DNA of 37,901 nucleotides from Acidobacteriota bacterium. GTDB lineage: Bacteria; Acidobacteriota; Terriglobia; Bryobacterales; Bryobacteraceae. This document shows, piece by piece, positions 3,155 through 30,916 of the stretch (positions are counted from its first letter, which is position 1; each line of letters opens with the position of its first letter). The notes under the pieces were generated by a model. That model did no database searches, was not told the DNA's origin, and was given only the letters and a program-made list of their open reading frames with translations. Location: NCBI GenBank assembly GCA_003223115.1, contig QHXW01000412.1:1-37901 (forward strand). The letters run 5' to 3'. Made by a program: the position numbers and the translations under genes.

Positions 3155-3165
3155 TCGCGAAAGCC

Positions 3166-10690: not shown

Positions 10691-10714
10691 TGGTCGAGAC
10701 CCCCCATCAACCAC

Positions 10715-12393: not shown

Positions 12394-14789
12394 TTTTTCA
12401 AGTCACCAGGGATGCAATATACAGGACGCGGAACACGCAGAAGTGGAACTGGCGGTCTGCAGCTAGCGCGGCAATCATACTGTGGGCTCTGGTCCTGAGT
12501 CCCTCACGCATGGCGGGGCAGAATCCCGCCGCGGCCCCTCCAAATCTGGCGGAAGGTCAGGGAACATACGCCGAACGCTGCGTCGGTTGTCACGGGGCCG
12601 ACGCTCATGGGACCGATCAGGCTCCGGGTCTCGTGGGCAACAGCCGGGTCAGTGGTCAGTCCGTTCAGAAGATCCGTGACGTGATTCGCAACGGTATTCC
12701 CCGGACCGGCATGCCGGGTTTCGATCTGCCGGCTCGGGATCTCGACGCTCTTGCAGCCTTCGTGCACTCATTAAATGTGGAGGCGGCTCGAAGCGACGTG
12801 CCCGGTAATCCGGCCGCCGGAGAGCAATTGTTTTTTGGAAAAGGGCAATGCGCTACCTGCCATATGGTCTCCGGCAGAGGCGAGCCCATTGGTCCGGATT
12901 TGTCGAACATCGGCCATGGGAGGACTGTTGACCAAATTCGATCGTCACTGCTCGAGCCCGGCGCGCGTATCGCCCGCGGCTATGAACTGGTGACCGTGGA
13001 GTTGCGGGATGGCAACACGCTTCGCGGTTTCGCGCGGAGCCGGAGCAATTTCGACCTTCGCCTAGAGGATCTGACGGGAAAGATCCACCTGCTTCAGGAG
13101 AGCCAGATCGCTGCGATCCACGAAGAAGATGCATCGCCGATGCCCGCCGTAAGAGCCAACCCTGAAGAGTTGCAGGATCTGATCGCTTATCTCAGCCGGC
13201 TGACCGGCGTGAAGCCCAGATTGATGGCGGCCATCCACGCGCCCGGGCCGGACGAAATTGATTTCTCTCGAATTCTGAATCCCCGCCCGGGAGATTGGTT
13301 GACTTACAACGGAAAGCTGAGCGGGAATCGATACAGCGATCTCAAACAGATCAATACCAAGAACGTGAACCGGTTGGCGCTGAAGTGGATATTTACCGTG
13401 CCTCTCTGGATGCAGCTTCTTCCTGACACCGGCTACTACATCGAGAACATGAAGTACTTTGGCCTCGAGACGACGCCTATTGTGGCTGATGGCACGATGT
13501 ACGTGACTGGTCCCCATCAGGTGTATGCGCTCGATGCTCTCACAGGGCGCGTGATCTGGGAGTATTCCCGGCCGCGAACTCAAGGACTGGTTAGCGACGC
13601 GTCGTTGGGCACGAATCGGGGCGTGGCGATTCTTGGCGATAAGATCTTCAGGACCACCGACAACGCACACCTGATTGCGTTGAACCGCACAACGGGCAAA
13701 TTGGTTTGGGAACAAGTGATGCCTGAGGAGGCCCAGAAATATGGCTCGACCATGGCGCCTTTGGTTGTGAAGGACCTGGTGATCGCGGGCGTCTCGGGCG
13801 GCGACTGGGGCATTCGCGGATTTATCGCCGCATACAAGGCCGACACCGGCGAGCGCGTGTGGCGGTTTTGGACCGTTCCGGCCAAAGGAGAGCCCGGCAT
13901 CGAGACCTGGAAAGGCGAGGAACCCAAGGTCGGCGGGGGCTCGACGTGGCTCACCGGTACTTATGATCCGAAGACCGATACGTTATACTGGCCCACCGGC
14001 AATCCTTTTCCAAACTCCGACGATCGTAACCGGCCGGGCGACAATCTCTTCACCGATTGCATTCTAGCGCTCGACGCCGGCACCGGAAAGTTGAAATGGC
14101 ATTATCAGTTCACTCCACACGATCTTCACGATTGGGATTCGACCGAACCGCCGGTTCTGATCGACACGCGGTATCACGGGCAAGACAGAAAGCTGCTGCT
14201 GTTTGCGAATCGCAACGGGTTCTTCTACGTGCTTGACCGGACCAATGGAAAGGTTCTGCTGGCCAAGCCATTCATCAAGCAGCTCACCTGGGCCAGCGGA
14301 ATTGGTCCAGACGGCCGTCCCCAGTACTTGCAGGAGGGCGATGTAACCTGCCCGGAAGCTGCAACGAATTGGAATGCAACCGCGTTCAGCCCGGTGACAC
14401 GTCTTTATTACCTGGTCGCAGTCGAAGAGTGCGTGGTCAAACTTTCGTCCGGCGCTGGAAAGAGGCAGCTTCCGAAAGAGGAGCCCGCCGTGAAGTACGT
14501 GCGCGCGCTGGATATCGAGAGCGGAAAAGTGGTTTGGGAAAAGCCTCAGATCGGACCAGCGGATGGTAAGCGCTGTGCGGGCGTGTTAGGGACAGCCGGC
14601 GGCCTGGTATTTTACGGAGACCCGGGTGGGGATTTTGTGGCTCTCGACGAGCGGGACGGGAAAACGCTGTGGCATTTCCCTGCTGGCGGAGAAAACAAGA
14701 CATCTCCCGTGACGTTCACCGTTGGCGGAAAACAGTTCATCGCCATTGCCATCGGTTCAAATATCCTGTGCTTTGGCTTGAACGACTAA
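12390..14789 (+). CDS. Di-haem cytochrome c / PQQ-dependent dehydrogenase fusion
   Basis: A 799-residue exported quinohaemoprotein. A signal anchor (about 20-43) is followed by two cytochrome c units with CVGCH (64-68) and CATCH (154-158); Met108 in TGMPG is the likely axial ligand of the first haem. From about 290 to the end it is an eight-bladed PQQ propeller like methanol/alcohol dehydrogenases (GDWLTYNGKLSGNRYSDL, GGSTWLTGTYDP, HYQFTPHDLHDWDS with a candidate catalytic Asp583, and repeated WxF/ALD blade signatures). PQQ enzymes oxidise alcohols or sugars in the periplasm and pass electrons to cytochromes. Here the haems are N-terminal, while classical type II enzymes carry a C-terminal one. 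The adjacent Cys-Cys pair of methanol dehydrogenases is not seen. Last gene of the operon. Confidence 0.93.
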   Translation: MIFQVTRDAIYRTRNTQKWNWRSAASAAIILWALVLSPSRMAGQNPAAAPPNLAEGQGTYAERCVGCHGADAHGTDQAPGLVGNSRVSGQSVQKIRDVIRNGIPRTGMPGFDLPARDLDALAAFVHSLNVEAARSDVPGNPAAGEQLFFGKGQCATCHMVSGRGEPIGPDLSNIGHGRTVDQIRSSLLEPGARIARGYELVTVELRDGNTLRGFARSRSNFDLRLEDLTGKIHLLQESQIAAIHEEDASPMPAVRANPEELQDLIAYLSRLTGVKPRLMAAIHAPGPDEIDFSRILNPRPGDWLTYNGKLSGNRYSDLKQINTKNVNRLALKWIFTVPLWMQLLPDTGYYIENMKYFGLETTPIVADGTMYVTGPHQVYALDALTGRVIWEYSRPRTQGLVSDASLGTNRGVAILGDKIFRTTDNAHLIALNRTTGKLVWEQVMPEEAQKYGSTMAPLVVKDLVIAGVSGGDWGIRGFIAAYKADTGERVWRFWTVPAKGEPGIETWKGEEPKVGGGSTWLTGTYDPKTDTLYWPTGNPFPNSDDRNRPGDNLFTDCILALDAGTGKLKWHYQFTPHDLHDWDSTEPPVLIDTRYHGQDRKLLLFANRNGFFYVLDRTNGKVLLAKPFIKQLTWASGIGPDGRPQYLQEGDVTCPEAATNWNATAFSPVTRLYYLVAVEECVVKLSSGAGKRQLPKEEPAVKYVRALDIESGKVVWEKPQIGPADGKRCAGVLGTAGGLVFYGDPGGDFVALDERDGKTLWHFPAGGENKTSPVTFTVGGKQFIAIAIGSNILCFGLND

Positions 14790-15528: not shown

Positions 15529-15608
15529 TATCCTGTGCTTTGGCTTGAACGACTAAGTTCCGAGCATCGGCCCGCTACTTGCCGCCTCTATGCTCCTGAA
15601 TGTACCGG
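15529..15608. repeat. Direct repeat, copy B (quinoprotein tail plus 3' end of deacetylase gene)
   Basis: Second copy of the 14762-14846 segment. Positions 15529-15572 repeat the last codons and stop of the quinoprotein gene exactly, far from that gene. They lead directly into the real 3' end of the polysaccharide deacetylase gene (from 15575). The two copies differ by small indels after the 44-base identical core. Confidence 0.9.
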
Positions 15609-16384
15609 GAAATATTTTCCACAGTATCGAGCCAGATACCATTCGCGTGGTCTGCGGCGTACTTTAAGAACTGCTCCAACACCGTAGCGTCATTGGTCTG
15701 GTGTCCGGGACTGCCGATTTCATGTCCGGCAAAAACCAGCCAGCCCCCCGTTTGAGCGGCGGCCACGACAGCGGCCTTCATGTCCTCAAGGCTCATTCCG
15801 TCAGAGTCCACGCCCAGCGTCTGTGCCAAATCGCAGAACATGGGATCGTTCGCCGCTTCTTCTCGAAAACCACGGCCCACGCGAAAGCGCTTCGCAACCA
15901 GCGGAACGTAGCTCCTGGTCTCTGTGCCCCGTCCGATGAATTTCTCGCCGCAAGGATAGGCAAACGTGGTGGGCTTCACGCCCAGCAAACTCTCCGTATC
16001 ACGGTTGGCGCTGTCGAGCTCGTTCTCCATCATGGCTACGGTGTAGTTTTCGAGAGCATTGCTCCGCGACCACGGGAAGTTGCCCGTGCACGGGTGTGAT
16101 GCGGAATGATTCCCGATCTCGTGTCCCTTCGCCGCGGCGCTTTTCCAGCCATCCAGGCGTTTTTGGGTGTTTTTCGGGTTTACGTAAAAGGTGACCTTGA
16201 CGCCGTACTTTTCGAACAAAGGCAACCCGACATCAATCTGGCTGGCGCGGGCATCGTCGAATGACAGGCTGACGGCCACCCGCTTACCCTCCGGCCAATG
16301 AAACACGGCATCGGACTTCTGCGCCCTCACTTCGCACTGCGCGCCGACGAGAAACGCAAACGCTGCTACGACTAAGGATTTCAT
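15575..16384 (-). CDS. Secreted polysaccharide deacetylase (NodB homology, CE4)
   Basis: A 269-residue exported carbohydrate-esterase-4 protein that should remove N- or O-acetyl groups from a polysaccharide such as peptidoglycan, chitin or xylan. A signal peptide covers about residues 1-21. The NodB motifs are visible: SFDDA (41-45, catalytic base and metal Asp), HSASHP (93-98, metal His), YPCG (motif 3) and a late WLVFAGHEIG containing the catalytic His. The length is typical for a single-domain enzyme. The ATG at 16384 is followed at once by the signal peptide; no clear Shine-Dalgarno is seen. It converges on the quinoprotein operon, with the repeat-flanked insert between them. A link to acetyl-ester breakdown by the upstream esterase is possible but unproven. 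Confidence 0.92.
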   Translation of the reverse strand: MKSLVVAAFAFLVGAQCEVRAQKSDAVFHWPEGKRVAVSLSFDDARASQIDVGLPLFEKYGVKVTFYVNPKNTQKRLDGWKSAAAKGHEIGNHSASHPCTGNFPWSRSNALENYTVAMMENELDSANRDTESLLGVKPTTFAYPCGEKFIGRGTETRSYVPLVAKRFRVGRGFREEAANDPMFCDLAQTLGVDSDGMSLEDMKAAVVAAAQTGGWLVFAGHEIGSPGHQTNDATVLEQFLKYAADHANGIWLDTVENISRYIQEHRGGK

Positions 16385-16414
16385 AAATTGTTCTTAATCA
16401 TTATGTGGCGCGGC

Positions 16415-16428
16415 CGCGATTTATCGCG
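16415..16428. promoter_or_regulatory. Palindrome in the divergent region before the cell-envelope cluster
   Basis: CGCGAT and ATCGCG form a perfect 6-base inverted repeat with a 2-base centre. It lies between the minus-strand deacetylase gene and the plus-strand FHA gene. A site here could serve as an operator for either gene, but 6-base arms in GC-rich DNA can occur by chance. Confidence 0.25.
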
Positions 16429-16607
16429 ACGCTCGGCTTAACGACGACAGAAGTTGCGTGAGACTAGCGCAATCGCCCTCTACCGGCGCATTTGGCCGAT
16501 TCTACCATCTCACCCGCAACAAGCGTACGTTGCCGCACGACCGGCGCTCCAGGCGACTTGTTAAGATTGAATTGGAACACGCGCGCAACGAATCTCGTAT
16601 CCGAAAT

Positions 16608-17456
16608 ATGACGCGTTTGGCCTCGAACTCCGCCACTGCGCGTGACATCATTCAGGAACTCGTGCGGAACATGCGCGAGGGCCTGGAGCCCCTGCAGTAC
16701 ACCCTTCTGGCGCCGGCCATTTATCACGTTTATCTGCACGCCGACGATCTGGAACGCTTGCGGGGTATTGTGCCCAGAATCATCGATGAGGCACACCGCG
16801 CGCTCGATGGCGAACTGGCCCTTCTGAACCGTGCGCCTCTGAGCGACAAGCTGCGGCTCTCGCGGAAACCGGCTCCCAAAGTAGACGCTCCGCCGGGGGG
16901 CTGGACCATCGACATTCTGGAAAACACCGACGAAGAAACCCAGCCCGGCGACATCGTCATCTATTCGGAACTCGCCATGCCGTCCAAGCCTGAGTATGGC
17001 GCCGGATCCATGACGAAGCGTATTGCCACCAGCCGGCTTTCGGGCGAGTTAAAGACGTCACAAAAGTTTGACGAGAAGCCCGATAGCGCCGCCGAAGCAT
17101 ACGCCACCATCGAATACGAAGACCAGAATGGACGCCAGACGTACCGCGTGACCAAGAACCAGATCGTCATCGGCCGCGGAGGCCGCGACTACTGGACCGA
17201 CTTGACGCTCCACACTGTGCCCGACGTCTCGCGCGAGCACATACGCTTGCGCCGCGACCCGGACAGCGGAAAATTCTTTCTGAAGGACCTGAGCCGGCTC
17301 GGTACAACTGTGGATGGCCAGAAGATTCCGAGCAGCATCGACTACGTCGAGGGTGAAAAAAAAGACAAGAATCTTGAAGTGGGTCTTCCGGTTCGCGCGC
17401 GGATCGGCCTGGCCGATGTGGTCTTCCTGGATTTTCGTGTGACGGGCGCCCAATGA
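16608..17456 (+). CDS. FHA-domain protein with DUF3662-like N-terminus (FhaB/FhaA-like)
   Basis: A 282-residue cytoplasmic protein. The N-terminal region (about 1-80) has a LLAPAIYHVYLHADDLERL segment like the DUF3662 domain of actinobacterial FhaA. A low-complexity linker is followed by a C-terminal FHA domain (about 170-280) with GRGGRD near 189, SREHIRLRRD and the closing LKDLSRLGTTVDG, which together form the phosphothreonine-binding pocket. FHA domains read Ser/Thr-kinase phosphorylation, and the kinase lies two genes on. The ATG at 16608 is chosen because family similarity starts there; the open frame continues up to 16458 without similarity. Its stop overlaps the start of a tiny membrane-protein gene (ATGA). 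It opens the kinase/phosphatase/peptidoglycan-synthase operon. Confidence 0.88.
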   Translation: MTRLASNSATARDIIQELVRNMREGLEPLQYTLLAPAIYHVYLHADDLERLRGIVPRIIDEAHRALDGELALLNRAPLSDKLRLSRKPAPKVDAPPGGWTIDILENTDEETQPGDIVIYSELAMPSKPEYGAGSMTKRIATSRLSGELKTSQKFDEKPDSAAEAYATIEYEDQNGRQTYRVTKNQIVIGRGGRDYWTDLTLHTVPDVSREHIRLRRDPDSGKFFLKDLSRLGTTVDGQKIPSSIDYVEGEKKDKNLEVGLPVRARIGLADVVFLDFRVTGAQ

Positions 17457-17554
17457 GATCGCTGCACATGGCTCGGTACTTCTTTGTGTCCGCCTTGCTC
17501 ATCCTGGTCGCTGGCCTGGCCTGGATGAGTCATTTCCGAACTCAACGAAAATAG
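17453..17554 (+). CDS. Tiny single-pass membrane protein in the envelope cluster
   Basis: A 33-codon frame whose ATG overlaps the FHA gene's stop (ATGA) and ends 6 bases before the phosphatase start. The product has a short basic N-terminus (MRSLHMARY), one hydrophobic segment (about residues 9-26, FFVSALLILVAGLAW) and a basic tail (RTQRK). This is the profile of a small regulatory membrane peptide. I recognise no family. The perfect operon spacing and clean membrane pattern argue that it is real, but only comparison with related genomes can show that. Confidence 0.5.
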   Translation: MRSLHMARYFFVSALLILVAGLAWMSHFRTQRK

Positions 17555-17560
17555 AACTTG

Positions 17561-19192
17561 ATGGTCTCGAGGACGAAGCTGCGGTGTGCGGGCGACAGCC
17601 ATCCGGGACTGGTGCGCTCCAACAATGAAGATCGTTTTCACTTCGATCCGGACCGCGGCATTTTTCTTGTGATCGACGGCATCGGTGGACACGCCGCCGG
17701 CGAAAAGGCCGCCGATATTGCGCTCAGTATGGTTCGAAGCCGCCTGGAACGTGAGACCGGTAGCGCCGGGGAGCGCATCCGGGAAGCTATTACGGTCGCC
17801 AATAACGAAATCTTCCGCCTCGCCAGAACAAATCCGAAGTGGGACGGGATGGCTTGCGTCCTCACGGTTGCGGTGGTCGAAGACGGATCGGCTGTCATCG
17901 GCCACGTCGGAGACTCGCGGCTCTACAAAATCCGCACAGACCGCATCGAGAAGATCACGCACGATCATTCGCCAGTCGGTGAGCGTGAGGATCGGAACGA
18001 CCTTTCCGAAACAGACGCCATGCGGCATCCGCGGCGCAACGAGGTGTTTCGCGACATCGGCACAGAAGAGCACACGCCGGACGACCCGGAGTTCATCGAA
18101 TTGCTTCGCATTCCGTTCGAGGAAGACAGCGCGTTGCTCTTGTGCAGTGACGGGCTCAGTGACCAGTTGACCTCCACGGAAATTCTGCGCACCGTCGTGC
18201 GCGGGGCTGGAAATCCGGACTCGGCCGTACAGGAACTCATCGCAGCCGCCAACCGCGCTGGTGGCAAGGATAACGTTTCGGTTGTCATCGCTGAGGCGCC
18301 ACGATTTTCGGGTCAGCCCGGCGGCGGATCGGCCCCGGACAAGGCCGCGCTCAATCTGTTCACTGCCCGGGGAGCGGTCGCCATCTACGGTTTCATTCTG
18401 GGCGTGCTGGTGCTAGGAGCTCTCGAGTGGCGTTTCGGATGGCTGCACCCCAACCGCACGTCCGATCTAATTTCCGACGCGCGGGTTCTGGTTGTTGGCA
18501 CCGGCGAAGGCGCGCAGTTCACAGCCATCAATGATGCTCTGTCCCAGGCGCGATTCGGCGATACCATCGAGCTGCTCGGCGGTGAGTATCGCGAGCAGAT
18601 CCGGCTGCGTAACGGCGTCAACCTCACGAGCCGGGTGCCGGATGGAGCCATGATCCGGGCCGCGCCTTCCGCTGCGGGCCCCACGATTGCGATTGTGGCC
18701 GAGAAAATCTCGAGCGGCCGGATTACCGGTCTGCGCATCCTTGCCGATGAAAAGATGCCGCTGGCCACAGGGATTCTCCTTGACGACTCGGATGTCGAAA
18801 TCGACGATTCGGAAATTGCAGGCGCCAGCACGGGCATCGAGATTCGAGGAAATTCGCGGGCGGTGCTTCGCGCCAATTCCATCCACGACAATGTGGATAC
18901 CGGTATCGTGATTTCGGGCGGCGCGACGCCCTGGCTCTCGCACAATAGCATCGCCAGCAACGGCCGCAACCCGCGTAGCCCGCGTCCGGGTGTGCTGGTT
19001 TCTAATCCCGCGCGTCCTGTCCTGATCGGTAACGTCTTTGATGACAATGGAACTCAAGCCGTCATCATCCCGCAGGGCATGGACGGCGGCCCGATTCTCA
19101 GATTCAACTTTTTTCTGAAAGGTGAGCCGCTCGGGCGCACGCAGCCGAGTGACATCCGCGGGACGCCAAAACAACGCAGGCGGCGGACGTGA
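17561..19192 (+). CDS. PP2C-type protein phosphatase with TM segment and extracytoplasmic beta-helix domain (PstP-like)
   Basis: A 543-residue membrane protein. The N-terminal PP2C domain (about 1-247) has all metal and catalytic motifs: GDSHPGLVRSNNED (11-24), DGIGGH (39-44), GDSRLY (117-122), CSDGLSD (195-201) and DN (237-238). Such enzymes remove phosphate from Ser/Thr of proteins, here presumably the adjacent kinase and its targets. One TM helix lies at about 271-290. The outer part (about 300-530) shows repeated short strands typical of right-handed parallel beta-helix (PbH1) domains (IDDSEIAGASTGIEI, RANSIHDNVDTGIVI, LSHNSIASNG). This fold often binds or cuts polysaccharides. A TTG one codon upstream was rejected in favour of the ATG. 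The stop overlaps the kinase's GTG start by 4 bases. Confidence 0.92.
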   Translation: MVSRTKLRCAGDSHPGLVRSNNEDRFHFDPDRGIFLVIDGIGGHAAGEKAADIALSMVRSRLERETGSAGERIREAITVANNEIFRLARTNPKWDGMACVLTVAVVEDGSAVIGHVGDSRLYKIRTDRIEKITHDHSPVGEREDRNDLSETDAMRHPRRNEVFRDIGTEEHTPDDPEFIELLRIPFEEDSALLLCSDGLSDQLTSTEILRTVVRGAGNPDSAVQELIAAANRAGGKDNVSVVIAEAPRFSGQPGGGSAPDKAALNLFTARGAVAIYGFILGVLVLGALEWRFGWLHPNRTSDLISDARVLVVGTGEGAQFTAINDALSQARFGDTIELLGGEYREQIRLRNGVNLTSRVPDGAMIRAAPSAAGPTIAIVAEKISSGRITGLRILADEKMPLATGILLDDSDVEIDDSEIAGASTGIEIRGNSRAVLRANSIHDNVDTGIVISGGATPWLSHNSIASNGRNPRSPRPGVLVSNPARPVLIGNVFDDNGTQAVIIPQGMDGGPILRFNFFLKGEPLGRTQPSDIRGTPKQRRRRT

Positions 19193-21105
19193 TACCTGTA
19201 AACCGCAAGGTCGGAAAATTCGAGATTGTCCGCAAGCTGGCGCGCGGCGGCATGGCCGATGTATATCTCGGCCGCGATGATGACACGGGCGGCACCATTG
19301 CTCTGAAGCTCATCGAACATGGCACTGATCCCGATACGGTGGACAGCATCGAAGCTGAGCGCCGCGGTTCGACGCTGCAGGCCCGGCTCGCCGCAGTCGA
19401 TCCGCGCGTGGTGCAGATCCATGGCACTGGCGACGTCGACGATTATTTCTACGTGGCGATGGAGTACATCGAGGGTGAGGATCTGTCAGAGATCATCCGG
19501 CGGGGGCCTCTGCCTGTGGCGCAAGCCGTCGAGATCGCCGGCGAGATTTGCGAGACGCTGGAGCACGCGCACAGCCTGCAAACCACCATCGACGGCAAAG
19601 AGTACCGCGGCATCATCCACGGCGACATCAAGCCGCGAAACATTCGGATCGACTCGAACGGGTGCGTGCGCTTGCTCGATTTCGGCATCGCCAAGGCTCT
19701 CTCGCTTTCCCGCCGCTTGACGCGCAATGAATTCGGCAGCGTGCAGTATGCTTCGCCCGAGCGGCTGGATTCGGGCGAAGTGGACCGCATGTCCGATTTG
19801 TGGTCGGTCGGCGTGGTGCTCTACGAGATGATAACGGGGCAGCAGCCTTACAAAGCGGCTACCACCGAGCGTCTGGAGAGGATGATTCGCTCTCGCATTC
19901 CACCGCCACCGGCGCCCGAGCCTTGTCCCGAACCGTTGCGAAAAATCCTGGTGAAAACGATGACGCCGGATCCAGAGCGGCGCTATCAGTCTGCAGCGGA
20001 CCTGGCAGCAGATCTGATTCGCTTCCGCGGAGGCGGCCTTGTGTTGGCTGCAGACGAAGAGGGCCAGGAAGCCACCAGACGAACCTCGCAGGCCGGTTCT
20101 GTGGATGAAAGTACGCGGAGAACAGCCGCGCCAGCGGATGTCCCGGCCGAAGACGATACGCAGCGAACGGTGGAGCAGTCCAAGCCATCAATACCCGCCG
20201 CACAGCCCGCGCCCGTGGTGAAACCGAAGCTCAAGATCAACAAGATCGTTGTGCGGAGCTTGGCATATCTGTGTCTGGCAATCATGCTCTACATTGGCTA
20301 TGAGACCACTTCCACTTACTTTCTTTACAAGCACGGGCAGCAATTCGAAAATCAGATCAAAACGGAAAAAGTGACGGACCCCGATCGTATCTGGGCGCAG
20401 TGGACGGCACTGGCGAAGGATCGTTCCTCGTCTCCATTCCTGTATGCACCGCGCCGGGCCGTCAAGCAAAAGCTGATGGCCTCCGCCGATCACGTGGTCG
20501 GTACATATAGAGCCAACGATTCCCAGACCGTGTATCAAAAGGATTGGGAGCGCGCGCGAACTTACCTGGCCGATGCCCTGACGCTTGATCCCGGCGACAA
20601 TACCGTCCGTGGGATGCTGCGGCTCAGCGAAGGCCACATTGCGCGAATCAACGGAACGGCGCGGCACAATAGCGCCGCGCTCAACGAGGCCGCTGAGAAG
20701 TTCAACGAGGCGCAGCAGTTGATGCCGAAATCCCCCGATCCCGAACTCGGCCTGGCACGCCTCTACGTTTACGGTTTCAAGGATATCGACAAGGCCTACA
20801 CCGCGCTCCATGAGGCAGAGCGCCGCGGTTATGCGCTGGGCAATCGCGAAAAGGGCCAGCTTGCAGACGGGTACCGCGAGCGGGCTGACCGGCTGTGGAA
20901 CGATTCCCGCAAGATTCGCGGCCTTCCACAGGAAAAAGACGAGGTGCGGAAGGCGGTCGACGATTACGATCGCGCGCTCGAGTTGTATCAGGAGATCGCA
21001 CCTTACGGCAATGCGAGTACCGGTATTGCACGCATTCAGGCGACGATAGGCGCTGTCAAAGGCCGGCTGTTGGAGTTGCAAGCCGGAGCCGATCTATGGC
21101 GGTAA
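19189..21105 (+). CDS. Membrane Ser/Thr protein kinase with extracytoplasmic TPR domain (PknB-like position)
   Basis: A 638-residue Hanks-type kinase. Cytoplasmic catalytic domain at about 9-275: glycine loop (LARGGMADVYLG), ATP lysine Lys40 (ALKLIE), catalytic loop HGDIKPRN with Asp146, DFG at 164-166, a GSVQYASPERL activation-segment end, and DLWSVGVVLYEM. The residue before the catalytic Asp is Gly145, not Arg, so this is a non-RD kinase. A Thr/Pro/Ala-rich linker and one TM helix (about 352-372) follow. The outer C-terminal part (about 375-638) has TPR-like helices and would act as the sensor; PASTA repeats of the PknB type are absent. Start GTG at 19189 overlaps the phosphatase stop. The kinase stop overlaps the SEDS-PBP fusion start by 10 bases. 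Confidence 0.93.
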   Translation: MIPVNRKVGKFEIVRKLARGGMADVYLGRDDDTGGTIALKLIEHGTDPDTVDSIEAERRGSTLQARLAAVDPRVVQIHGTGDVDDYFYVAMEYIEGEDLSEIIRRGPLPVAQAVEIAGEICETLEHAHSLQTTIDGKEYRGIIHGDIKPRNIRIDSNGCVRLLDFGIAKALSLSRRLTRNEFGSVQYASPERLDSGEVDRMSDLWSVGVVLYEMITGQQPYKAATTERLERMIRSRIPPPPAPEPCPEPLRKILVKTMTPDPERRYQSAADLAADLIRFRGGGLVLAADEEGQEATRRTSQAGSVDESTRRTAAPADVPAEDDTQRTVEQSKPSIPAAQPAPVVKPKLKINKIVVRSLAYLCLAIMLYIGYETTSTYFLYKHGQQFENQIKTEKVTDPDRIWAQWTALAKDRSSSPFLYAPRRAVKQKLMASADHVVGTYRANDSQTVYQKDWERARTYLADALTLDPGDNTVRGMLRLSEGHIARINGTARHNSAALNEAAEKFNEAQQLMPKSPDPELGLARLYVYGFKDIDKAYTALHEAERRGYALGNREKGQLADGYRERADRLWNDSRKIRGLPQEKDEVRKAVDDYDRALELYQEIAPYGNASTGIARIQATIGAVKGRLLELQAGADLWR

Positions 21106-24100
21106 CGCGTAGTAAGGCTATCGAACGCGTGGCGACCACTTACGGCCCACTGCACCGGAAGGCTGGAGATGCTTCCGAAGTAGTGTGGTTGGCCGCCGTC
21201 GCCGTACTGATCGCCTGCGGACTGTTCCTGGTGTTCAAAGCCAAAATCCACGCCTTCGGTGAAATTGAACAGGGCCTCGCGAGCAAGCAGATTCTGAACC
21301 TGAACGAGCTTTCGTCGCGAGATGATTTACTTCCTTACCTCGAAATTTTCCCGGATCCCGCCGAGCGGCAGTTCGTCGCGCGTAAGATCTACTATGCCAC
21401 CGGTAATTTGCCGAATGTCGGGGCGCTGGCGCGGATCCGGGTGCCTGAATCCGAGATTCATGGCGGTCGCGGCATGAGCGGATTCCGATCGAGGCTCGAG
21501 CAATTGCCTCAGGTAGAGAGCCACGAGCGTTCACTCGCGCTGCTGACGTCTGAGCAGTTTCGAATCCTCAAACCGCGTTTCGTGGTGCGGCGTCCGGCGC
21601 GTTTCGAACTGGAATTTTTCCTGTGGTCCGCATTGTTCTTCTGCGCTTATTTTGCGGTCTATCTCTGGTGGCGGCTGCGCAACTTCGATGGCGACCGGGT
21701 GCTGCTGGTCCCGGTTTTTCTGCTGACCGGCATCGGCCTCATCCTGATGGTGAGCCTGCGCGATTCGGTGCGGGACGGCCTGATATTCGCCGGGTTCGCG
21801 CAAGGAGTGATCGGCGGCTCTATGCTGTTGGGCTTGCTCAGCTTTATAGACTACAAACGCATGTTCGGAAAACTGTCATTCGTGCCGCTGCTCGCTAGCT
21901 TCGGGCTTTCTCTGTTGCTCGTCCTGTTCGGATATGGTCCGGGCACAAGCGATGCCAAGGTCAACTTGTTCGGATTTCAGCCGGTTGAGCTCATCCGCGT
22001 TCTACTGGTTCTTTTCCTGGCGGGTTATTTCGCCGAACGCTGGGATATTCTGCGCCACGCTCGTGAAGCGCGGCCCAAGATTGCGTGGCTCTCGAAATAC
22101 GTGGATTTACCGCCGCTCGAGTACACGGTTCCGGTGGTTGTGTGTGTCGTTCTGTCGCTGCTGTTCTTCTTTCTACAAAAAGATCTGGGACCAGCGCTGG
22201 TCTTCACCTGTCTTTTCCTCGGGCTCTACGCGATAGCACGGCGCGGCACCACAATGGCGTTCACCGGCCTGGCTGTTCTGGTGATCGGCTTCGGCGCAGG
22301 CTACCTGCTCGGCATTCCACGTACGGTTTCCTCGCGTGTCGCCATGTGGCTCTCGCCCTGGAACAATACCGTGCATGGAGGCGACCAACTCGCACAGTCG
22401 CTATGGGGATTCTCGACCGGCGGCACATTCGGCACAGGGCTCGGGCTGGGCGATGCGGCCCTCGTCCCGGCGGCTCATACCGATCTGGTTTTCTCGGCGC
22501 TGGGCGAGGAATGGGGCTTCCTCGGACTGGTTGCGGTCTTCGCCATTTACGCAATCGTCATCTATCGATCGTTCCACATTGCATTGCGGGCCAAAAGCGA
22601 TTACGAATTTTTTCTCGCCACAGGTCTTACCGCGGCCATCGCCTTGCAGATTCTCCTGATTGGCGGCGGAGCACTTGGCGTGGTGCCGCTCTCGGGTGTG
22701 GTTACTCCGTTTCTGAGTTACGGCCGCAGTTCCATGCTGGCCAATTTCCTGATCTTCGCCATTCTGCTTTCAATCTCCCGGGGCAGCGCGCCAGAACGTA
22801 ATGCGCCGTTTCGGGCGCCGGTCGCGACTATGGGCATCGTTCTGAGTGCTCTGGGCTCCATCATCATCGCCAAAGCCGCATACGTTCAGGTTCTGCGTAG
22901 CGGCCCGATCATGGGGCAAGGCGCTCTGGTTGTTCAGGCGGATGGCGGCCACCGCTACCAATATAATCCTCGCTTTCTCGAGATCATGCGCGAGATTCCG
23001 AAGGGTAGCATCTACGATCGCAACGGTCTGCCGCTGGCAACCAGCCGATGGGAAGAGCTTGAAGCGCATCGCGCTGAGTACGCCCGGCTCGGCGTCGATA
23101 TCAATCGCACGTGCTCGCGTACGGAAAGCCGGCATTATCCATTCGGCGGGCTGACCTTCGACCTTCTCGGCGATCTGCGCACGCGCATGCGTTGGGGCGC
23201 CGGCAACACATCCTTCGTCGAACGAGATTCCGATACTCATTTGCGCGGTTATGATGAACGTCCCACGCTTGTGACCGTGAAGGACCCGAAAACGGGCGCG
23301 ACTGAGCGCATCATGCGTTACGACTACAGCGAGCTGGTTCCATTGCTGCGCCACCGCTATGAGCCCGATGATCCCGCGGTTCGCCGCGTGCTCGACCGGC
23401 CGCGTGATGTGCATATGTCCATCGACGCGCGTTTCGAGGTGCGCACTGCGCAGATCCTCCAGCAGCAGTTGAGGCTGGCCGGAAAGGAGAAAGGCGCGAT
23501 TGTTGTGCTCGATCCTGCAACGGGAGATATGCTGGCTTCGGTGAGTTTTCCGCTTCCGCGGATGATTTCAGCAGATCAACCGTCGAAGACCCGCGACCCT
23601 ATCGGGGCCGATCTGGACAGTTCCGTCGATAACCCTAATCCCTCTCTCGATCGCGCGCGCTACGGCCTCTATCCGCCGGGGTCGACATTCAAAGTGGTCA
23701 CCACGCTGGCCGCGCTGCGTAAAGATCCGGCACTGGCGCACACTCAATACTCATGCATCCGCTTACCGGATGGCCGAGTGGGTAATTACATGCGCGGTTC
23801 CAATCGCCCCATCCGTGATGACGTCCTCGACAAGACACCGCACGGAAATCTGGACATGGAACGAGGCACTGTCGTTTCGTGCAACGCGTATTTCGCGCAG
23901 CTCGGAACATATGATGTGGGCGCTAAGCACTTGTTCGAAACCGCCAGCTTGCTGGGTATTGCAGTGGCCGCGCCGAACACAACGGAACAACTCCGCAAAT
24001 CTCTGCCGCAGTCTTCTTACGGGCAGGGGCAAGTGGTGGCGTCGCCCTTTCAGATGGCGCGGGTCGCCGCTACGGTTGCGAATAGCGGAATGATGCCGCC

Positions 24101-24458
24101 CGGGCAGTGGATTCGCGATGATGCCAAAGGACACACAGCGGAGTTCAAAACAATCGTCAGTCCGGATGTCGCGGTCACCGTGGGGAGATTCATGCGAGAG
24201 GTGGTGACCTCTGGCACCGCCCGGCGCGCTGCATCGGCCGTTGTGCCAATCGCGGGCAAGACCGGCACAGCGGAACTTGCCGACGCTCCCTCACACGCCT
24301 GGTTCATCGGATTTGCGCCCTATGGGAAGGCGGGCCGGCGGATTGCGTTTTCCATTTTGATCGAAAACGGCCAATACGGTGGGACGTACCCGGCGACGGC
24401 TGCTGTCGAGATCGTTGCCGCTGCTCGCGAACTGGGCCTTATCGGCGGGGCGGAGTAA
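21096..24458 (+). CDS. SEDS (RodA/FtsW) glycosyltransferase fused to class B penicillin-binding transpeptidase
   Basis: An 1120-residue membrane protein joining two peptidoglycan synthases. After TM1 (about 29-49) comes an extracytoplasmic segment (50-172), then a SEDS core of about ten TM helices (173-562). It shows SEDS landmarks: FQPVEL (295-299 region; canonical QPSE), QKDLGPAL (361-368), AAHTDLVFSALGEEWGFLG with the conserved loop Asp463, and PFLSYGRSS (538-546). SEDS proteins polymerise lipid II into glycan. A further TM (577-600) leads to a PBP2-type domain: IPKGSIYDRNG pedestal start (634-644), transpeptidase motifs STFK with Ser863, SCN (928-930) and KTGT (1055-1058). The ATG at 21096 overlaps the kinase by 10 bases. 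All catalytic residues are present and the single frame is intact, so the fusion is unlikely to be a sequencing artefact. Confidence 0.95.
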   Translation: MAVTRSKAIERVATTYGPLHRKAGDASEVVWLAAVAVLIACGLFLVFKAKIHAFGEIEQGLASKQILNLNELSSRDDLLPYLEIFPDPAERQFVARKIYYATGNLPNVGALARIRVPESEIHGGRGMSGFRSRLEQLPQVESHERSLALLTSEQFRILKPRFVVRRPARFELEFFLWSALFFCAYFAVYLWWRLRNFDGDRVLLVPVFLLTGIGLILMVSLRDSVRDGLIFAGFAQGVIGGSMLLGLLSFIDYKRMFGKLSFVPLLASFGLSLLLVLFGYGPGTSDAKVNLFGFQPVELIRVLLVLFLAGYFAERWDILRHAREARPKIAWLSKYVDLPPLEYTVPVVVCVVLSLLFFFLQKDLGPALVFTCLFLGLYAIARRGTTMAFTGLAVLVIGFGAGYLLGIPRTVSSRVAMWLSPWNNTVHGGDQLAQSLWGFSTGGTFGTGLGLGDAALVPAAHTDLVFSALGEEWGFLGLVAVFAIYAIVIYRSFHIALRAKSDYEFFLATGLTAAIALQILLIGGGALGVVPLSGVVTPFLSYGRSSMLANFLIFAILLSISRGSAPERNAPFRAPVATMGIVLSALGSIIIAKAAYVQVLRSGPIMGQGALVVQADGGHRYQYNPRFLEIMREIPKGSIYDRNGLPLATSRWEELEAHRAEYARLGVDINRTCSRTESRHYPFGGLTFDLLGDLRTRMRWGAGNTSFVERDSDTHLRGYDERPTLVTVKDPKTGATERIMRYDYSELVPLLRHRYEPDDPAVRRVLDRPRDVHMSIDARFEVRTAQILQQQLRLAGKEKGAIVVLDPATGDMLASVSFPLPRMISADQPSKTRDPIGADLDSSVDNPNPSLDRARYGLYPPGSTFKVVTTLAALRKDPALAHTQYSCIRLPDGRVGNYMRGSNRPIRDDVLDKTPHGNLDMERGTVVSCNAYFAQLGTYDVGAKHLFETASLLGIAVAAPNTTEQLRKSLPQSSYGQGQVVASPFQMARVAATVANSGMMPPGQWIRDDAKGHTAEFKTIVSPDVAVTVGRFMREVVTSGTARRAASAVVPIAGKTGTAELADAPSHAWFIGFAPYGKAGRRIAFSILIENGQYGGTYPATAAVEIVAAARELGLIGGAE

Positions 24459-24463
24459 CAGCC

Positions 24464-25243
24464 ATGCGTTTTTTCTCGGAAATCGAAAAGACCATCGAGC
24501 GGGAGTTTCGTAAGTGGACCCAAAAAGCATTTGGGCCCGCGGAGTCCGATGAGCTGCTGCTGGTCCATCGCGCCATCCTGGAAGAAATAGAGAGCAAAAT
24601 CCAAACGCTGCGCCGCGGCAGCCGGATATTCCCGTTTAACCACCTGGTGGTTCGCTGCTTCTCTCCTGATCCGGCAAAGCGCGCGCTCTTCGAAGCCGCG
24701 TTCGGCCAGAATCGGCGACTGGAAAACGACATGCGCGAGTGCTTGGCCGGGGCACAATGCGAATTGCCCGCTGGTTTCTCGCTTGAGATTGAAACGGCCG
24801 AGAACGGGCCAAAGACTTTCGAAATCCTGTACGAAGTTCAGAACGCGCCGGCTGTCTCCACGGCCAAGCCTGAGCCGGCACGAGTAGTGGTGGTGCGCGG
24901 CAAAGCCAATCTGGATTCGTTCGTGTTGAACAAGCCGCGCACGAACATCGGACGGTTGGCGGAACTTACGGATGCCCGCCATCGCGTCATGCGGCGCAAC
25001 GACATCGTGTTCGAAGATGGAGCAGATGAGGCCAACGCCACGGTCTCACGCAGCCACGCGCACATCCACTTCGATCCAGAGACGGCCGAGTATCGCATCT
25101 GCGATGATTCGAGCGAATATGGCACGCGCATCTTTCGCGACGGCCGCTCGATTGAAGTGCCTTCCGGCGGCAAGCGGGGCGAGCATCTCAGCGCGGGCGA
25201 CGAAATCTACTTCGGCCGTGCCTGCATCCGCTTTGAAGGATAG
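24464..25243 (+). CDS. FhaA-like DUF3662/FHA protein
   Basis: A 259-residue cytoplasmic protein. The N-terminal part (about 1-125) matches the DUF3662/FhaA N-terminal domain: a leading amphipathic FFSEIEKTIEREF, ILEEIESKIQTLRRGSRIFPF, and a small alpha/beta fold. The C-terminal FHA domain (about 145-259) has NIGR near 161, VSRSHAHIHFD, DDSSEYGTRIFRDG and GDEIYFG, giving the Ser/His and GT residues of a phosphothreonine pocket. In Actinobacteria FhaA binds phosphorylated MviN and links the PknB kinase to cell-wall synthesis; a similar adaptor role is inferred here from its neighbours. It starts 5 bases after the fusion gene, with GGAG 8 bases before the ATG. Last gene of the cluster. Confidence 0.9.
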   Translation: MRFFSEIEKTIEREFRKWTQKAFGPAESDELLLVHRAILEEIESKIQTLRRGSRIFPFNHLVVRCFSPDPAKRALFEAAFGQNRRLENDMRECLAGAQCELPAGFSLEIETAENGPKTFEILYEVQNAPAVSTAKPEPARVVVVRGKANLDSFVLNKPRTNIGRLAELTDARHRVMRRNDIVFEDGADEANATVSRSHAHIHFDPETAEYRICDDSSEYGTRIFRDGRSIEVPSGGKRGEHLSAGDEIYFGRACIRFEG

Positions 25244-26088: not shown

Positions 26089-28482
26089 ATGTCAGTTGCC
26101 AGCCCCCTTGAAGTCGGTTACCGATCAGACGTGTTGTCCGAGGAAGATCTCCGTAAGATCGATGCTTACTGGCGCGCCGCCAACTACCTGTCCGTCGGCC
26201 AGATCTACCTCTATGACAACCCGCTGCTCACGGAGCCGCTGCGGCTGGACCACATCAAGCCACGGCTGCTGGGTCATTGGGGCACCACTCCAGGCCTGAA
26301 TTTCATCTACGTCCACTGCAACCGCATCATTAAGAAGTATAACGTCAACATGATTTACATCTGCGGGCCGGGGCACGGGGGCCCGGGTATGGTGGCGAAC
26401 ACGTGGCTCGAGGGGACCTACAGCGAGTTCTATCCGAACATCACCCAGGACGCTGAAGGCATGCAGCGGCTTTTCAAACAGTTCTCATTTCCTGGCGGCA
26501 TTCCCAGCCATGCGGCGCCGGAAACACCGGGTTCCATCCATGAAGGCGGAGAACTCGGGTACGCGCTTTTGCACGCTTACGGGGCAGTGTTCGACAATCC
26601 CGACCTGGTGGCGTGTTGCGTCATTGGAGATGGCGAGACGGAAACAGGTCCTCTGGCAGCGAGCTGGCATTCGAATAAGTTTCTCAATCCCGCGCGTGAC
26701 GGAGCTGTGATTCCGATCCTGCATCTGAACGGGTATAAGATCGCCGGGCCGACCGTGCTCGCGCGTATTGGCAACGACGAGCTGACGGATCTACTGCGCG
26801 GTTACGGATATCAGCCCTTTTTCGTTGAAGGCGACCAGCCCGAACCCATGCACCGGTTAATGGCGGGCACGCTCGAAACCGTGTTGGAAGATATCCGGGC
26901 TATTCAGAAAGATGCCCGGGAGCATGGCTTCTCGAAGCGTCCGCGCTGGCCCATGATCGTACTGCGCTCGCCCAAGGGATGGACCGGGCCGAAAGAAGTA
27001 GACGGGCAGCCCGTCGAAGGGACATTCCGCTCCCATCAAGTGCCTGTCGATCAGATGTCGAGCAAACCTGAACACATCAAGATTCTTGAAGCCTGGATGA
27101 AAAGCTACCATCCCGAGCAACTGTTCGATGAAAACGGCCGGTTGATCCGCGAGCTTGCCGATCTGGCGCCGAAAGGCGAGCGGCGCATGGGCGCCAACCC
27201 TCACGCCAACGGCGGATTGCTTCTGCGGGAGCTGCGCATGCCGGATTTCCGCAGTTATGCCGTCGCAGTGCCGAAGCCCGGTACCGTGCGCTCGGAAGCG
27301 ACACGAGTACTGGGACAGATGCTCCGCGACATGATGAAGCTGAACACTGAGTCGCGCAGCTTCCGGGTTTTTGGACCGGATGAGACCAGCTCTAACCGGC
27401 TGGATGCGCTCTTCGAGGTGACAAACCGCGTTTCGACTGCTGAGATTCTTCCGACGGACGATCACGTTTCGCCGGATGGCCGCGTGATGGAAGTGCTCAG
27501 CGAACACATGTGCCAGGGATGGCTGGAAGGTTACCTGCTCACCGGCCGGCACGGTTTCTTTTCCTGCTATGAAGCCTTCATCCACATTGTGGACTCGATG
27601 TTCAACCAGCATGCGAAATGGTTGAAAATCACGCGCGGCATTCCCTGGCGGCGCCCCATCGCGTCTCTGAACTATCTGCTCACCTCGCATGTGTGGCGGC
27701 AGGATCACAACGGCTTCAGCCATCAGGATCCCGGCTTTATCGACCTCGTGATGAATAAGAAGGCGGACGTGGTACGCGTGTATTTGCCTCCCGACTCAAA
27801 CTGCCTGCTTTCGGTGGCAGACCATTGCCTGCGGAGCCGGCATTACGTCAACGTCATCGTTGCCGGGAAACAGCCGGCACTGCAGTGGCTGGACATGGAT
27901 TCGGCAGTCCAGCACTGTACTACGGGAATCGGCATCTGGGACTGGGCCAGCAACGACCAAGGCGGAGAGCCGGACGTAGTCATGGCGTGCGCCGGCGACA
28001 TTCCGACGCTCGAGACGCTGGCGGCAGTCGCCTGGCTGCGCGAACATTTTGCTGAATTGAAAATCCGCGTTGTGAACGTCGTGGATCTGATGACGCTTCA
28101 GCCTTCGAGCGAGCACCCGCACGGTCTCTCTGATCGCGACTTCGATTCCATCTTCACCGCCAACAAACCCATCGTCTTTGCGTTTCATGGGTATCCCTGG
28201 CTCATCCACCGGCTCACCTATCGCCGCACGAATCACGACAATCTGCACGTGCGCGGATACAAAGAAGAAGGCACAACCACCACACCCTTCGATATGACCG
28301 TGTTGAACGATCTGGACCGGTTCCACCTGGCCGGGGACGTCATCGACCGTGTGCCCAAATTGCAAAGCGTGGCGGCGCACAAGAAACAGATGCTGCGCAA
28401 CAAGTTGATCGAGCACAGGCTCTACATCACGCGGCACGGCGACGATATGCCGGAGGTTCGCGACTGGCGATGGCACGGGTAA
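26089..28482 (+). CDS. xfp: Phosphoketolase (xylulose-5-phosphate/fructose-6-phosphate)
   Basis: A 797-residue thiamine-diphosphate enzyme that splits xylulose 5-phosphate (and often fructose 6-phosphate) with phosphate to give acetyl phosphate and a shorter sugar phosphate in the cytoplasm. The whole sequence follows the family: substrate/TPP motifs [21 protein letters not shown] and [19 protein letters not shown] near the N-terminus, the TPP/Mg motif GDGETETGP at about 181-189, [11 protein letters not shown], the central TSSNRL region, [16 protein letters not shown], and the C-terminal [14 protein letters not shown]. Length is normal (about 790-820). It has a strong ribosome binding site and the next gene begins 41 bases later. 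No acetate kinase or phosphotransacetylase gene is adjacent, so the fate of acetyl phosphate is not shown here. Confidence 0.97.
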
Positions 28483-29176: not shown

Positions 29177-30916
29177 TCAAATGCCCTTCCCTGCCCCTTG
29201 GCGCAGCGTCATGATTCGGTCTGCCTTGATACCTTCGAAGCGCTCGTGCTTGTGGTCCGGCCATTGGACCAGCACAGCCTCGATTTGAGGCTGATCTCCC
29301 AGCCCGAAATGCACGCGCACATCACTGGCGCTGAGGTAACTGGAATCGGTATGGACCTGACGCCACAACGTGTTCTGGCCGCTGCGGACCACCCCAACAA
29401 GCGCGCCGACGGCGAACCGGTTGGTGCGAGGCGATTCGAGTTTCACCGTAAGCCAGTGCCGGCGTGAAGGCGCCTCGTTGCGCCATAGCTGATTGCGTAG
29501 CAAGCGCACCGGCCCGTTATCATTGGTGACGACGATATCGATGGCGCCGTCGTTATCTACGTCGCCGAAAGCGGCGCCGCGTCCAACTTCTTCTATCTTG
29601 AATGCCGCACCGCCCAGACGCGATGTTTCGCGAAAACGCTTGCGGCGGCCTTCGTTGTGAAACAACTGCTTGCGTTGAGCATAGGTAGAGGCGCCGCGAT
29701 GCTCGGAACCGAGAATCGTTACCGCCCCATTGGTAATGAAAAGATCGAGCCAGCCGTCGTTATCGTAATCGAACCATCCGGCGCCGAAGCCCGTATTGCC
29801 GAAGGTTGCTTCGAGCAAACCGAATTCCGCCGTGACGTCGTCGAACTGTCCCCGTGAATCGCCGCGGAAAACTGTGACGCCCTCGCGCGTGAGATTAGTC
29901 ACCAGCAGTACCTGGCCTCCGTTGTTTTCGACATCACCGAGCGTGACGCCCATGCCGGCTTTGGCCAGCCCGTCCATGCTGTACGCTACACCCATGTCCA
30001 GCGCCGCATCACGAAACGTGCCATCCCCCTGATTGAGCCATAACTGGTTGGCCGCGGTGTCGTTTGCCACATAGATGTCGGTGCGGCCATCGCCGTTGAA
30101 ATCCGCGCACACCACGCCGAGCGCCGGCCCGTAAGCGCGGTTGATTCCCGAGGCCTCGGTAATGTCCTCGAACTTCCCGTTCCCCAGGTTACGGAAAAGT
30201 CGGGAGGGCACCGGATGGTACATCTTCGGCGTGCAGTAATCCGGCTCTCCCGCCGGCGAAGAACAAGCACGATTGCCTTCCACGGTGAAATCGACGTAGT
30301 TGCAGACAAACAAATCCAGATAACCATCGCCGTCAAAATCCACCCAGGCGGCGCTGGTCGACCAATGCGGATCATCCACGCCGGCTTCACGCGTCACATC
30401 GGTGAACGTTCCGTCGCCGTTGTTGTGATACAGCACGTTGCGGCCGAAATTCGTCACGTATAAGTCGAGAAGGCCATCGTTATCGTAATCGCCCACCGCC
30501 ACGCCCATGCCGTAACCCATGTAGCCGACGCCGGCTTTCTCGGTGACGTCGACGAAGCGCAACTCGCCGGTCTCAGCCAGCAGATTCTTGAACAGGCGGT
30601 TCCCCGGTTTCCAGCCGGAGGGAGGCGGCGACAGCAGCTTGCCGGATCGGTTGAACCGTGTGCCCTGCACCAAATAGATGTCCAAATCGCCGTCGTTGTC
30701 ATAGTCGAACAGCGCCCCCCCCGGACCCATGGCCTCGGGCATATAGTGTTGGCCGGTCGCACCATTCGAATGATGAAAATTGAGCCCTGTTTCGGCGGCG
30801 ATATCGCGAAACAGCGGCGCCTCCGGGGCCCCGGCTCCGGAGACTCGACTGCCGCCATAGAGACCGCCCGCAGCCAGCGCCTTCAACAGACCCCGGCGGG
30901 AGATACCGCGAATCAT
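29177..30916 (-). CDS. CRTAC1-family protein (FG-GAP/VCBS repeats with ASPIC/UnbV domain), Tat-exported
   Basis: A 579-residue secreted beta-propeller protein. A twin-arginine signal ([13 protein letters not shown]) starts it. Repeated calcium-binding FG-GAP/VCBS motifs follow, each with a DYDNDG- or DFDGDG-type loop, through about residue 480. The C-terminal ASPIC/UnbV domain (about 495-575) shows [24 protein letters not shown] and VLVQWPD. The family is known in eukaryotes as cartilage acidic protein 1; the bacterial role is unknown, but binding of extracellular glycans or proteins is likely. Its start overlaps the upstream TPR gene's stop by 4 bases, making it the last gene of a four-gene operon. 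TPR-CRTAC1 pairs recur in Acidobacteria and related phyla. Confidence 0.93.

Follow-up and report, generated by a model that had tools for sequence, protein, structure and literature searches.

A SEDS-class B PBP fusion clustered with kinase, phosphatase and FHA genes in Acidobacteriota, and its relation to the actinobacterial pkn locus

The closest described system is the fhaA-pstP-rodA-pbpA-pkn locus of Actinobacteria. Passages of two papers describe this locus and its link to wall synthesis (PMC6554272; PMC11898655), and passages of the former report that knockdown of the pstP operon in Mycobacterium smegmatis alters the wall and cell shape, and that a pknB-fhaA cluster is conserved also in a subset of Firmicutes (PMC6554272). 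Natural SEDS-PBP fusions encoded by a single open reading frame (ORF) are mentioned in a passage of another paper, with the Rhodococcus RHA1 genome as reference (PMC10449877). Thus, separate rodA and pbpA genes are not a strict criterion when a cluster is compared with the actinobacterial locus. We analyzed a set of five plus-strand genes at positions 16608-25243 of contig QHXW01000412.1 (GenBank assembly GCA_003223115.1), from an Acidobacteriota bacterium of the family Bryobacteraceae; "the window" is the whole 37,901-nucleotide stretch of this contig. The genes encode an FHA protein (fha1), a PP2C phosphatase, a Ser/Thr kinase, a fusion of a SEDS protein to a class B penicillin-binding protein (PBP), and a second FHA protein (fha2; Table 1). 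An earlier note, made from the window alone, proposed that this is a counterpart of the actinobacterial locus. The clade of the SEDS domain and the FhaA-like domains agree with that proposal, whereas the fusion of RodA and PbpA, the clade of the kinase, the absence of FhaB and the gene order do not. Judged from sequence, the cluster is not the actinobacterial locus itself but a variant built on a common SEDS/FhaA core, because the SEDS and FhaA-like domains are related, the kinase is not a relative of PknA/PknB, and the tree does not decide the kinship of the PBP. The cluster probably encodes a self-contained, phosphorylation-controlled peptidoglycan synthase that supplements the canonical Rod and Fts machines. 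No description of the acidobacterial cluster was found in the titles and starts of abstracts of the open-licence papers listed, which is weak evidence of novelty.

Domains were called using Pfam and NCBIfam, and membrane helices are hydropathy predictions. In the fusion, SEDS (FTSW_RODA_SPOVE, E 2.4e-51) occupies residues 207-562 and the transpeptidase (Transpeptidase, E 1.3e-34) residues 800-1106. The domains of both activities listed as RodA and PbpA in the earlier note are therefore present, but in one ORF of 1120 residues and not in two genes. Separate rodA and pbpA genes were rejected, given that 15 aligned relatives likewise have one ORF, and so was an assembly artefact, given that the same fusion is found in many assemblies. 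The protein has a low-confidence N-terminal tail (MAVTRS), a helix, an insert of ~115 residues, a second helix, the SEDS core, the PBP helix, a pedestal and the transpeptidase. The AlphaFold2 model has a mean pLDDT (predicted local distance difference test) of 86.3 and a pTM (predicted template modelling score) of 0.79. A fold search with this model gave M. tuberculosis PbpA (3un7) as the best PDB match, and all 50 matches listed are PBPs or putative PBPs. T462/D463, S863/K866, S928/N930 and K1055-T1058 are invariant in 35 aligned fusions. We take these residues to be the SEDS catalytic Asp and the SxxK, SxN and KTG motifs of the PBP, presuming the catalytic roles known from the families. By regular expression, SxxK, SxN and KTGT were each recovered in 82 of 87 fusions, and HTD in 69 of the 87.

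A scan of named genomes yielded 194 relatives, and cluster counts refer to the best 80 of these. All 80 loci have acidobacterial titles, and they include Bryobacterales, Occallatibacter, Thermoanaerobaculia, Holophagales and gp6/gp18 bins. All five genes are present in the same order in 53, a further 20 are short of genes only at contig ends, and none of the 80 has another order among the genes present. The flanks are not shared: no family of flanking ORFs is common to more than 5 of 81 loci, and a conserved sixth gene was rejected on this basis. The cluster is thus more than chance proximity; the earlier note would have been refuted by its absence from all related genomes, and gene-neighbourhood comparison found it kept in related genomes. 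The packing of a few bases described by the earlier note holds for three of four junctions (an overlap of 4 bases between the PP2C and kinase genes, an overlap of 10 between the kinase and fusion genes, and a gap of 5 before fha2), but not for the fha1/PP2C junction, where the gap is 101 bases. The mechanical ORF of fha1 begins at 16458, and aligned homologues favour a start at 16608. Base composition is unbroken across the region.

The fusion is patchily distributed. It was identified in 12 of 61 genomes (the window's own and relatives), all 12 being among the 37 genomes of the same family; the other 24, from outside the family, gave only weak matches. Across the family, 84 of 237 genomes match the fusion at E<=1e-100 (51 of 148 good-quality genomes; 30 of 76 genera), and across the phylum 11 of 396 do so, the own genome included. 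Partial matches are counted in both scans, which scored three (family) and two (phylum) candidates per genome, making copy numbers and absences rough. A tree of full-length fusions has two lineages within Bryobacterales, which fits the presence of two clusters in one genome (see below). Members of the window's lineage have a long PP2C; those of the other often have a short PP2C that lacks the ectodomain. With two Bryobacterales lineages and many genomes that lack the fusion, the distribution within Acidobacteriota looks old.

The assembly comprises 9.1 Mb in 594 contigs (97.5% complete, 4.8% contamination) and encodes four SEDS domains: RodA, FtsW, the fusion of the window, and a second fusion on contig C121 that sits within a second copy of the five-gene cluster. 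The mreB gene (C562:33490) and a canonical SEDS gene, RodA (C562:38791), are 4.3 kb apart, and the PBP encoded there groups with E. coli PBP2; RodA and FtsW were named from the grouping of neighbouring PBPs with E. coli PBP2 and FtsI. The fusion was rejected as the sole SEDS of the genome, and it is likely accessory because canonical RodA, FtsW and MreB are encoded elsewhere. FhaA_N was found at two places in the genome, one in each cluster, and the match in the second copy (16.4 bits, E 0.068) does not reach the cut-off; among 14 control genomes it was found in Corynebacterium glutamicum only. PP2C_2 occurs at four places, two of them in the fusion clusters. The genome has 72 Pkinase matches (some of them fragments) compared to only 4 PP2C_2 matches.

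The descent of the SEDS domain ties the fusion to the actinobacterial locus. A profile of fused SEDS domains scores the RodA proteins encoded by four actinobacterial pkn loci, together with two plasmid-borne relatives from Streptomycetaceae, at 185-211 bits, the SEDS of an FHA locus in Monoglobus at 163 bits, and canonical RodA, FtsW and SpoVE at 68-127 bits. A broken Arthrobacter copy matches in two pieces, at 77-78 and 124 bits, and no PBP or PP2C match was found within the 14 kb surrounding the two plasmid-borne relatives (L162, L163). In a SEDS tree of 65 rows, the fusions, the four pkn-locus RodA, the two plasmid relatives and Monoglobus fall on one side (100/100), and the fusions, including one from Spirosoma, form one clade (100/100). 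Constraining the fusions to group with canonical acidobacterial SEDS was rejected by the approximately unbiased (AU) test (p 0.0003); the set was chosen after the tree was seen, as in all AU tests here, both for SEDS and for the transpeptidase. The first SEDS tree kept 65 of 86 loci with a SEDS row, and the 21 excluded were duplicates, broken copies or sequences of fewer than 300 residues (including L131, L136, L156, L157, L161, L169, L171 and L172); a later tree was made without L139, L143 and L030, with Spirosoma and E. coli added by hand. Two extra N-terminal helices are common to the fusions and to the actinobacterial and Monoglobus SEDS, and were not seen in the RodA and FtsW of this genome. 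These are the helices that ~115 residues separate in the fusions. The earlier note considered that phylogenies might show unrelated origins; for SEDS, the tree joins the fusion to RodA of the actinobacterial locus. We conclude, from profile scores and tree, that the SEDS subfamily of the actinobacterial pkn locus extends beyond Actinomycetota and Bacillota.

FhaA-like domains are the other part of the shared core. In fha1, Pfam identified an FHA domain (E 1.5e-9) and, at 22.9 bits against a cut-off of 25, FhaA_N (E 1.2e-4). The FhaA_N score was 24.9 bits in the genome search and 25.3 with neighbours, and 9 of 13 aligned fha1 members have this domain at E<=0.01. No membrane helix above threshold was predicted in fha1. 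For fha2, Pfam identified the FHA domain (E 3.2e-5), and the AlphaFold2 model (mean pLDDT 93.3) has the FHA domains of OdhI and GarA as its best PDB matches; the matches listed bear on the FHA domain and not on the N-terminal domain. When compared with an actinobacterial FhaA profile of four sequences using hhalign, the N-terminus of fha2 gave a probability of 96.7 (E 3.2e-10) and that of fha1 93.0 (E 3.3e-7). Controls reached at most 5.0 in 200 column shuffles (4.2 in 100 for fha2), 1.2 for reversed profiles and 0.6 for pieces of unrelated domains. The N-terminal domains of fha1 and fha2 do not match each other (hhalign probability 0.9). The earlier note described the last gene as FhaA-like; an FhaA-like N-terminal domain is present in both proteins, but Pfam picks fha1 and not the last gene, and detection in fha2 needs profile-profile comparison. 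Neither a third FHA gene nor a short FhaB-like gene encoding only FHA was identified within the cluster.

The kinase has Pkinase (E 1e-41) and TPR_19 (E 1.7e-6) matches and a predicted membrane helix at about residues 353-371. HGD replaces HRD in the catalytic loop, as it does in 67 of 75 cluster kinases, and no PASTA domain was matched by Pfam. The phosphatase has PP2C_2 (E 4.1e-14) and Beta_helix (E 1.9e-13) matches, NF033484 at E 1e-57 but below its cut-off, and a predicted membrane helix at about residues 271-289. Pfam also identified the beta-helix domain in three of six other PP2C proteins scanned (L086, L074 and L108; not L115, L140 or Spirosoma). In the PP2C tree, the domains from the clusters form a clade with that of Spirosoma, but branches are long and the tree does not decide the kinship to PstP.

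The first 23 residues of the fusion have pLDDT below 50 and are variable except for M-A-V-T-[R/K]-S, in which 33 of 35 aligned fusions keep T4 and 30 keep S6. Of 84 distinct fusions whose start could be read, 64 fit the pattern [VILM]-T-[RKH]-[ST] (L085, L101, L103 and duplicates were excluded from this count). The fusion of Occallatibacter savannae AB23 (L074), a cultured carrier, begins with MVITRR, which retains the Thr but differs from the exact peptide. An overlap of 10 bases with the kinase gene is frequent, and we therefore examined fusion genes without it; of 57 motif-bearing fusion genes, 30 have no such overlap and still keep the motif, and the idea that gene overlap alone accounts for conservation was rejected. 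The tail is expected to be cytoplasmic, and its conserved Thr, together with the neighbouring genes for a kinase, a phosphatase and two FHA proteins, makes a phospho-switch plausible; we regard the MAVT[R/K]S peptide as a candidate for it.

Outside Acidobacteriota, coverage consists of 72,556 plasmid records together with the 80 genome loci described above. One match among the plasmid records covers more than 80% of the fusion, on a 137-kb plasmid of Spirosoma oryzicola (Bacteroidota). The annotation there reads FHA, PP2C, kinase, kinase, SEDS-PBP fusion, FHA, which is the same order with an extra kinase. Pfam confirmed FHA in the first but not in the last of these FHA proteins, which an fha2 profile finds at 44.8 bits. 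The Spirosoma fusion (L131 6206-10177) also matches CarboxypepD_reg weakly (E 7.3e-5, under the cut-off), at the place that a different insert occupies in acidobacterial fusions. In Monoglobus (Clostridia), an FHA gene lies directly 5' of SEDS and PBP genes.

The domains with their intact motifs, the conserved linkage, the SEDS phylogeny, the FhaA_N similarity and the conserved N-terminal peptide point to the following scheme, in which we infer enzymatic activity, membrane orientation, kinase substrates, ligands of the FHA proteins and of the ectodomains, and time of use. The SEDS part of the fusion would polymerise lipid II and the PBP part would cross-link the strands, at a fixed 1:1 ratio. 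The membrane kinase, through its TPR-like ectodomain, and the membrane PP2C, through its beta-helix ectodomain, may monitor the envelope and determine the phosphorylation state. The two FhaA-like proteins would read phosphothreonine and recruit or hold the synthase, with Thr4 of the conserved N-terminal tail as a likely phosphosite. Common descent with the actinobacterial locus would extend to the SEDS part and the FhaA-like domains, and the kinase, ectodomains, fusion and order would be the cluster's own.

Several results weigh against this scheme or against the shared descent that goes with it. The free transpeptidase tree, made without Spirosoma, places the fusion with PbpA (95/75), but the alternatives are not rejected by AU: grouping with FtsI has p 0.354, and grouping with PBP2 has p 0.657 and a likelihood higher than that of the free tree. 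The 22 acidobacterial cluster kinases retained after thinning form their own clade (100/99), apart from PknA/PknB, when placed against a background of the genome's own kinases (30 of 72 matches with loci); orthology to PknB was rejected on this basis. The two Spirosoma kinases also fall outside the clade of acidobacterial cluster kinases. The N-terminal pattern is missing in 20 of 84 fusions, including that of Spirosoma and six of one clade that start with MRII/MRV (L125, L127, L140, L144-L146). The Asn of the NG motif of FHA is absent in 54 of 57 fha2 and 39 of 66 fha1 proteins, so that binding of phosphothreonine by these proteins is not certain; the SRxH motif is retained by 52 of the 57 fha2 and 63 of the 66 fha1 proteins. 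Scans for promoters and terminators in the region found no more than shuffled sequence (3 compared to 3.2, and 9 compared to 10.7, respectively). Seven of the 80 loci lack one or more genes despite room for them: PP2C is absent from L119 and L130, fha1 from L057, and fha2 from L062 and L103 (the latter also cut on its other side), and L052 lacks the three upstream genes and L101 all four partners. Two divergent members of the phylum are rearranged (L138, with three kinases in a clade of their own) or reduced (L139, with only PP2C, the fusion and a kinase-like gene). Beside the L138 cluster, a kinase is joined to an FGE-sulfatase domain (16369-18000), and the kinase-like protein beside the divergent L139 fusion (10402-12594) has a weak match, below cut-off, to TCAD9 (ternary complex associated domain).

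How the cluster arose, and what its signalling genes act on, can be read in other ways. Acidobacteriota may have gathered generic kinase, PP2C, FHA and wall genes independently, in which case the cluster would resemble the actinobacterial locus in function alone; the separate clades of the kinase and of PP2C (apart from PknA/PknB and PstP) and the differing order and ectodomains fit such convergence, and the transpeptidase tree does not settle kinship. However, the SEDS domain groups with pkn-locus RodA at 100/100 and not with the SEDS of its own phylum, even if the group tested by AU was chosen after the tree was seen, and the extra SEDS helices and FhaA-like domains are shared, so we consider independent assembly improbable. 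Only slightly less improbable, in our judgement, is that the fusion is a spare synthase, co-located with signalling genes through a shared envelope-stress operon while those genes act mainly on other targets. The canonical RodA, FtsW and MreB elsewhere, which make the fusion likely accessory, and the lack of a known substrate would suit such an arrangement; the five genes nevertheless stay together as flanks change, and the N-terminal tail of the fusion has a conserved peptide. That the cluster is a mobile module, dispersed mostly through horizontal transfer and not inherited vertically from early on and then lost in places, deserves more credit than either of these, although we lean against it. 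The plasmid-borne copy in Bacteroidota, the varied flanks, the patchy presence across phylum and family, and the pairing in the tree of an Occallatibacter copy with a copy from a genome of the window's family speak for transfer, whereas the fusion tree roughly keeps the gp6-like, Thermoanaerobaculia/Holophagales and Bryobacterales sets together, and many records are metagenome-assembled genomes with uncertain labels.

We thus retain the phosphorylation-controlled, probably accessory synthase as the preferred reading. A more far-reaching version is tentative, and on balance we doubt it: the cluster may be a portable module in which a single-chain SEDS-class B PBP carries a built-in N-terminal phospho-switch (Thr4 of MAVT[R/K]S), with the receptor kinase and receptor phosphatase of its operon setting the switch and two FhaA-like proteins reading it, and it would share an ancestor with the actinobacterial locus. 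If so, kinase-gated SEDS synthesis would predate at least Actinomycetota, Acidobacteriota, Bacillota and Bacteroidota, or would have been exchanged among these phyla. In Actinobacteria, Ser/Thr kinase signalling has a conserved link to wall synthesis by SEDS proteins, but the involvement of these genes in growth makes the link difficult to analyze. In these soil bacteria, a related core appears as a fused, compact and probably accessory module that could be deleted or moved as a unit, and the 1:1 fusion with its short conserved N-terminal peptide marks a site at which phospho-control of a SEDS enzyme could be tested directly. With its fusion, its N-terminal peptide and its counterpart on a Spirosoma plasmid, the cluster is of more interest than in its first description.

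Table 1. Coordinates (window positions) and features of the five-gene cluster
Feature	Position	Strand	Description	Basis
fha1	16608..17456	+	FhaA_N-like domain and C-terminal FHA domain, 282 aa	Pfam
PP2C phosphatase, Stp1/IreP-like	17558..19192	+	Predicted membrane helix, then right-handed beta-helix domain	Pfam, NCBIfam, hydropathy
Ser/Thr kinase	19189..21105	+	One predicted membrane helix, TPR-like C-terminal domain	Pfam, hydropathy
SEDS-class B PBP fusion	21096..24458	+	Single ORF, 1120 aa	Pfam
N-terminal peptide M-A-V-T-R-S of the fusion (codons)	21096..21113	+	Candidate phosphosite Thr4	Alignment of fusions
fha2	24464..25243	+	FhaA-like N-terminal domain and C-terminal FHA domain, 259 aa	Pfam, hhalign

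Other genes were identified around the cluster. Divergent from it is a polysaccharide deacetylase (Polysacc_deac_1; 15575-16384, minus strand) with an N-terminus that looks signal-like by eye, and which could act on peptidoglycan. A PSCyt1/PSCyt2/PSD1 (DUF1549/DUF1553) protein (3166-6513, minus strand) adjoins a DUF1501 protein (1721-3169, minus strand), a pairing known from Planctomycetes. Two FG-GAP/UnbV_ASPIC proteins (29177-30916 and 35394-37139) have TPR proteins between them (30913-32331 and 33808-35295), perhaps as a duplicated pair. Pfam also identified a phosphoketolase (XFP; 26089-28482) and a PQQ-type beta-propeller protein with cytochrome c domains (12390-14789).

Like RodA-PBP2 and FtsW-FtsI, the fusion combines a SEDS polymerase with a class B PBP and has the catalytic motifs. 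Unlike these synthases, it is a single chain tied to kinase, phosphatase and FHA genes, and its SEDS domain lies outside the canonical RodA and FtsW group; compared with the canonical Rod system (RodA-PBP2 with MreB), the mreB-linked SEDS is another gene. The natural single-ORF fusions mentioned in PMC10449877 resemble it by their description there, with SEDS and PBP in one ORF. The Monoglobus set is similar in that FHA stands beside SEDS and PBP and the SEDS is on the same side of the tree, but SEDS and PBP are separate and neither a kinase nor a PP2C is annotated within 14 kb.

The comparison with the actinobacterial locus used records from Tsukamurella and Actinomyces, in one of which the PP2C is unannotated and was found by profile. 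Features in common are an FhaA-type FHA protein, a PP2C, a Ser/Thr kinase, a class B PBP, tight packing on the same strand, and a SEDS that belongs to the same clade and likewise has the two additional N-terminal helices. SEDS and PBP are fused here, whereas rodA and pbpA are separate and adjacent in Tsukamurella and Actinomyces. A single HGD kinase of another clade, without PASTA, takes the place of PknA/PknB with their PASTA kinase; the PP2C has a beta-helix domain; and the cluster has a second FhaA-like protein but lacks a short FhaB. Canonical RodA and FtsW are encoded elsewhere in the genome. As the earlier note stated, the gene order is different, being fha-pp2c-pkn-sedspbp-fha here and fha-fha-pp2c-rodA-pbpA-pkn-pkn in the actinobacterial record. 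In the component phylogenies against actinobacterial proteins, SEDS joins its actinobacterial relatives and the kinase stands apart from them.

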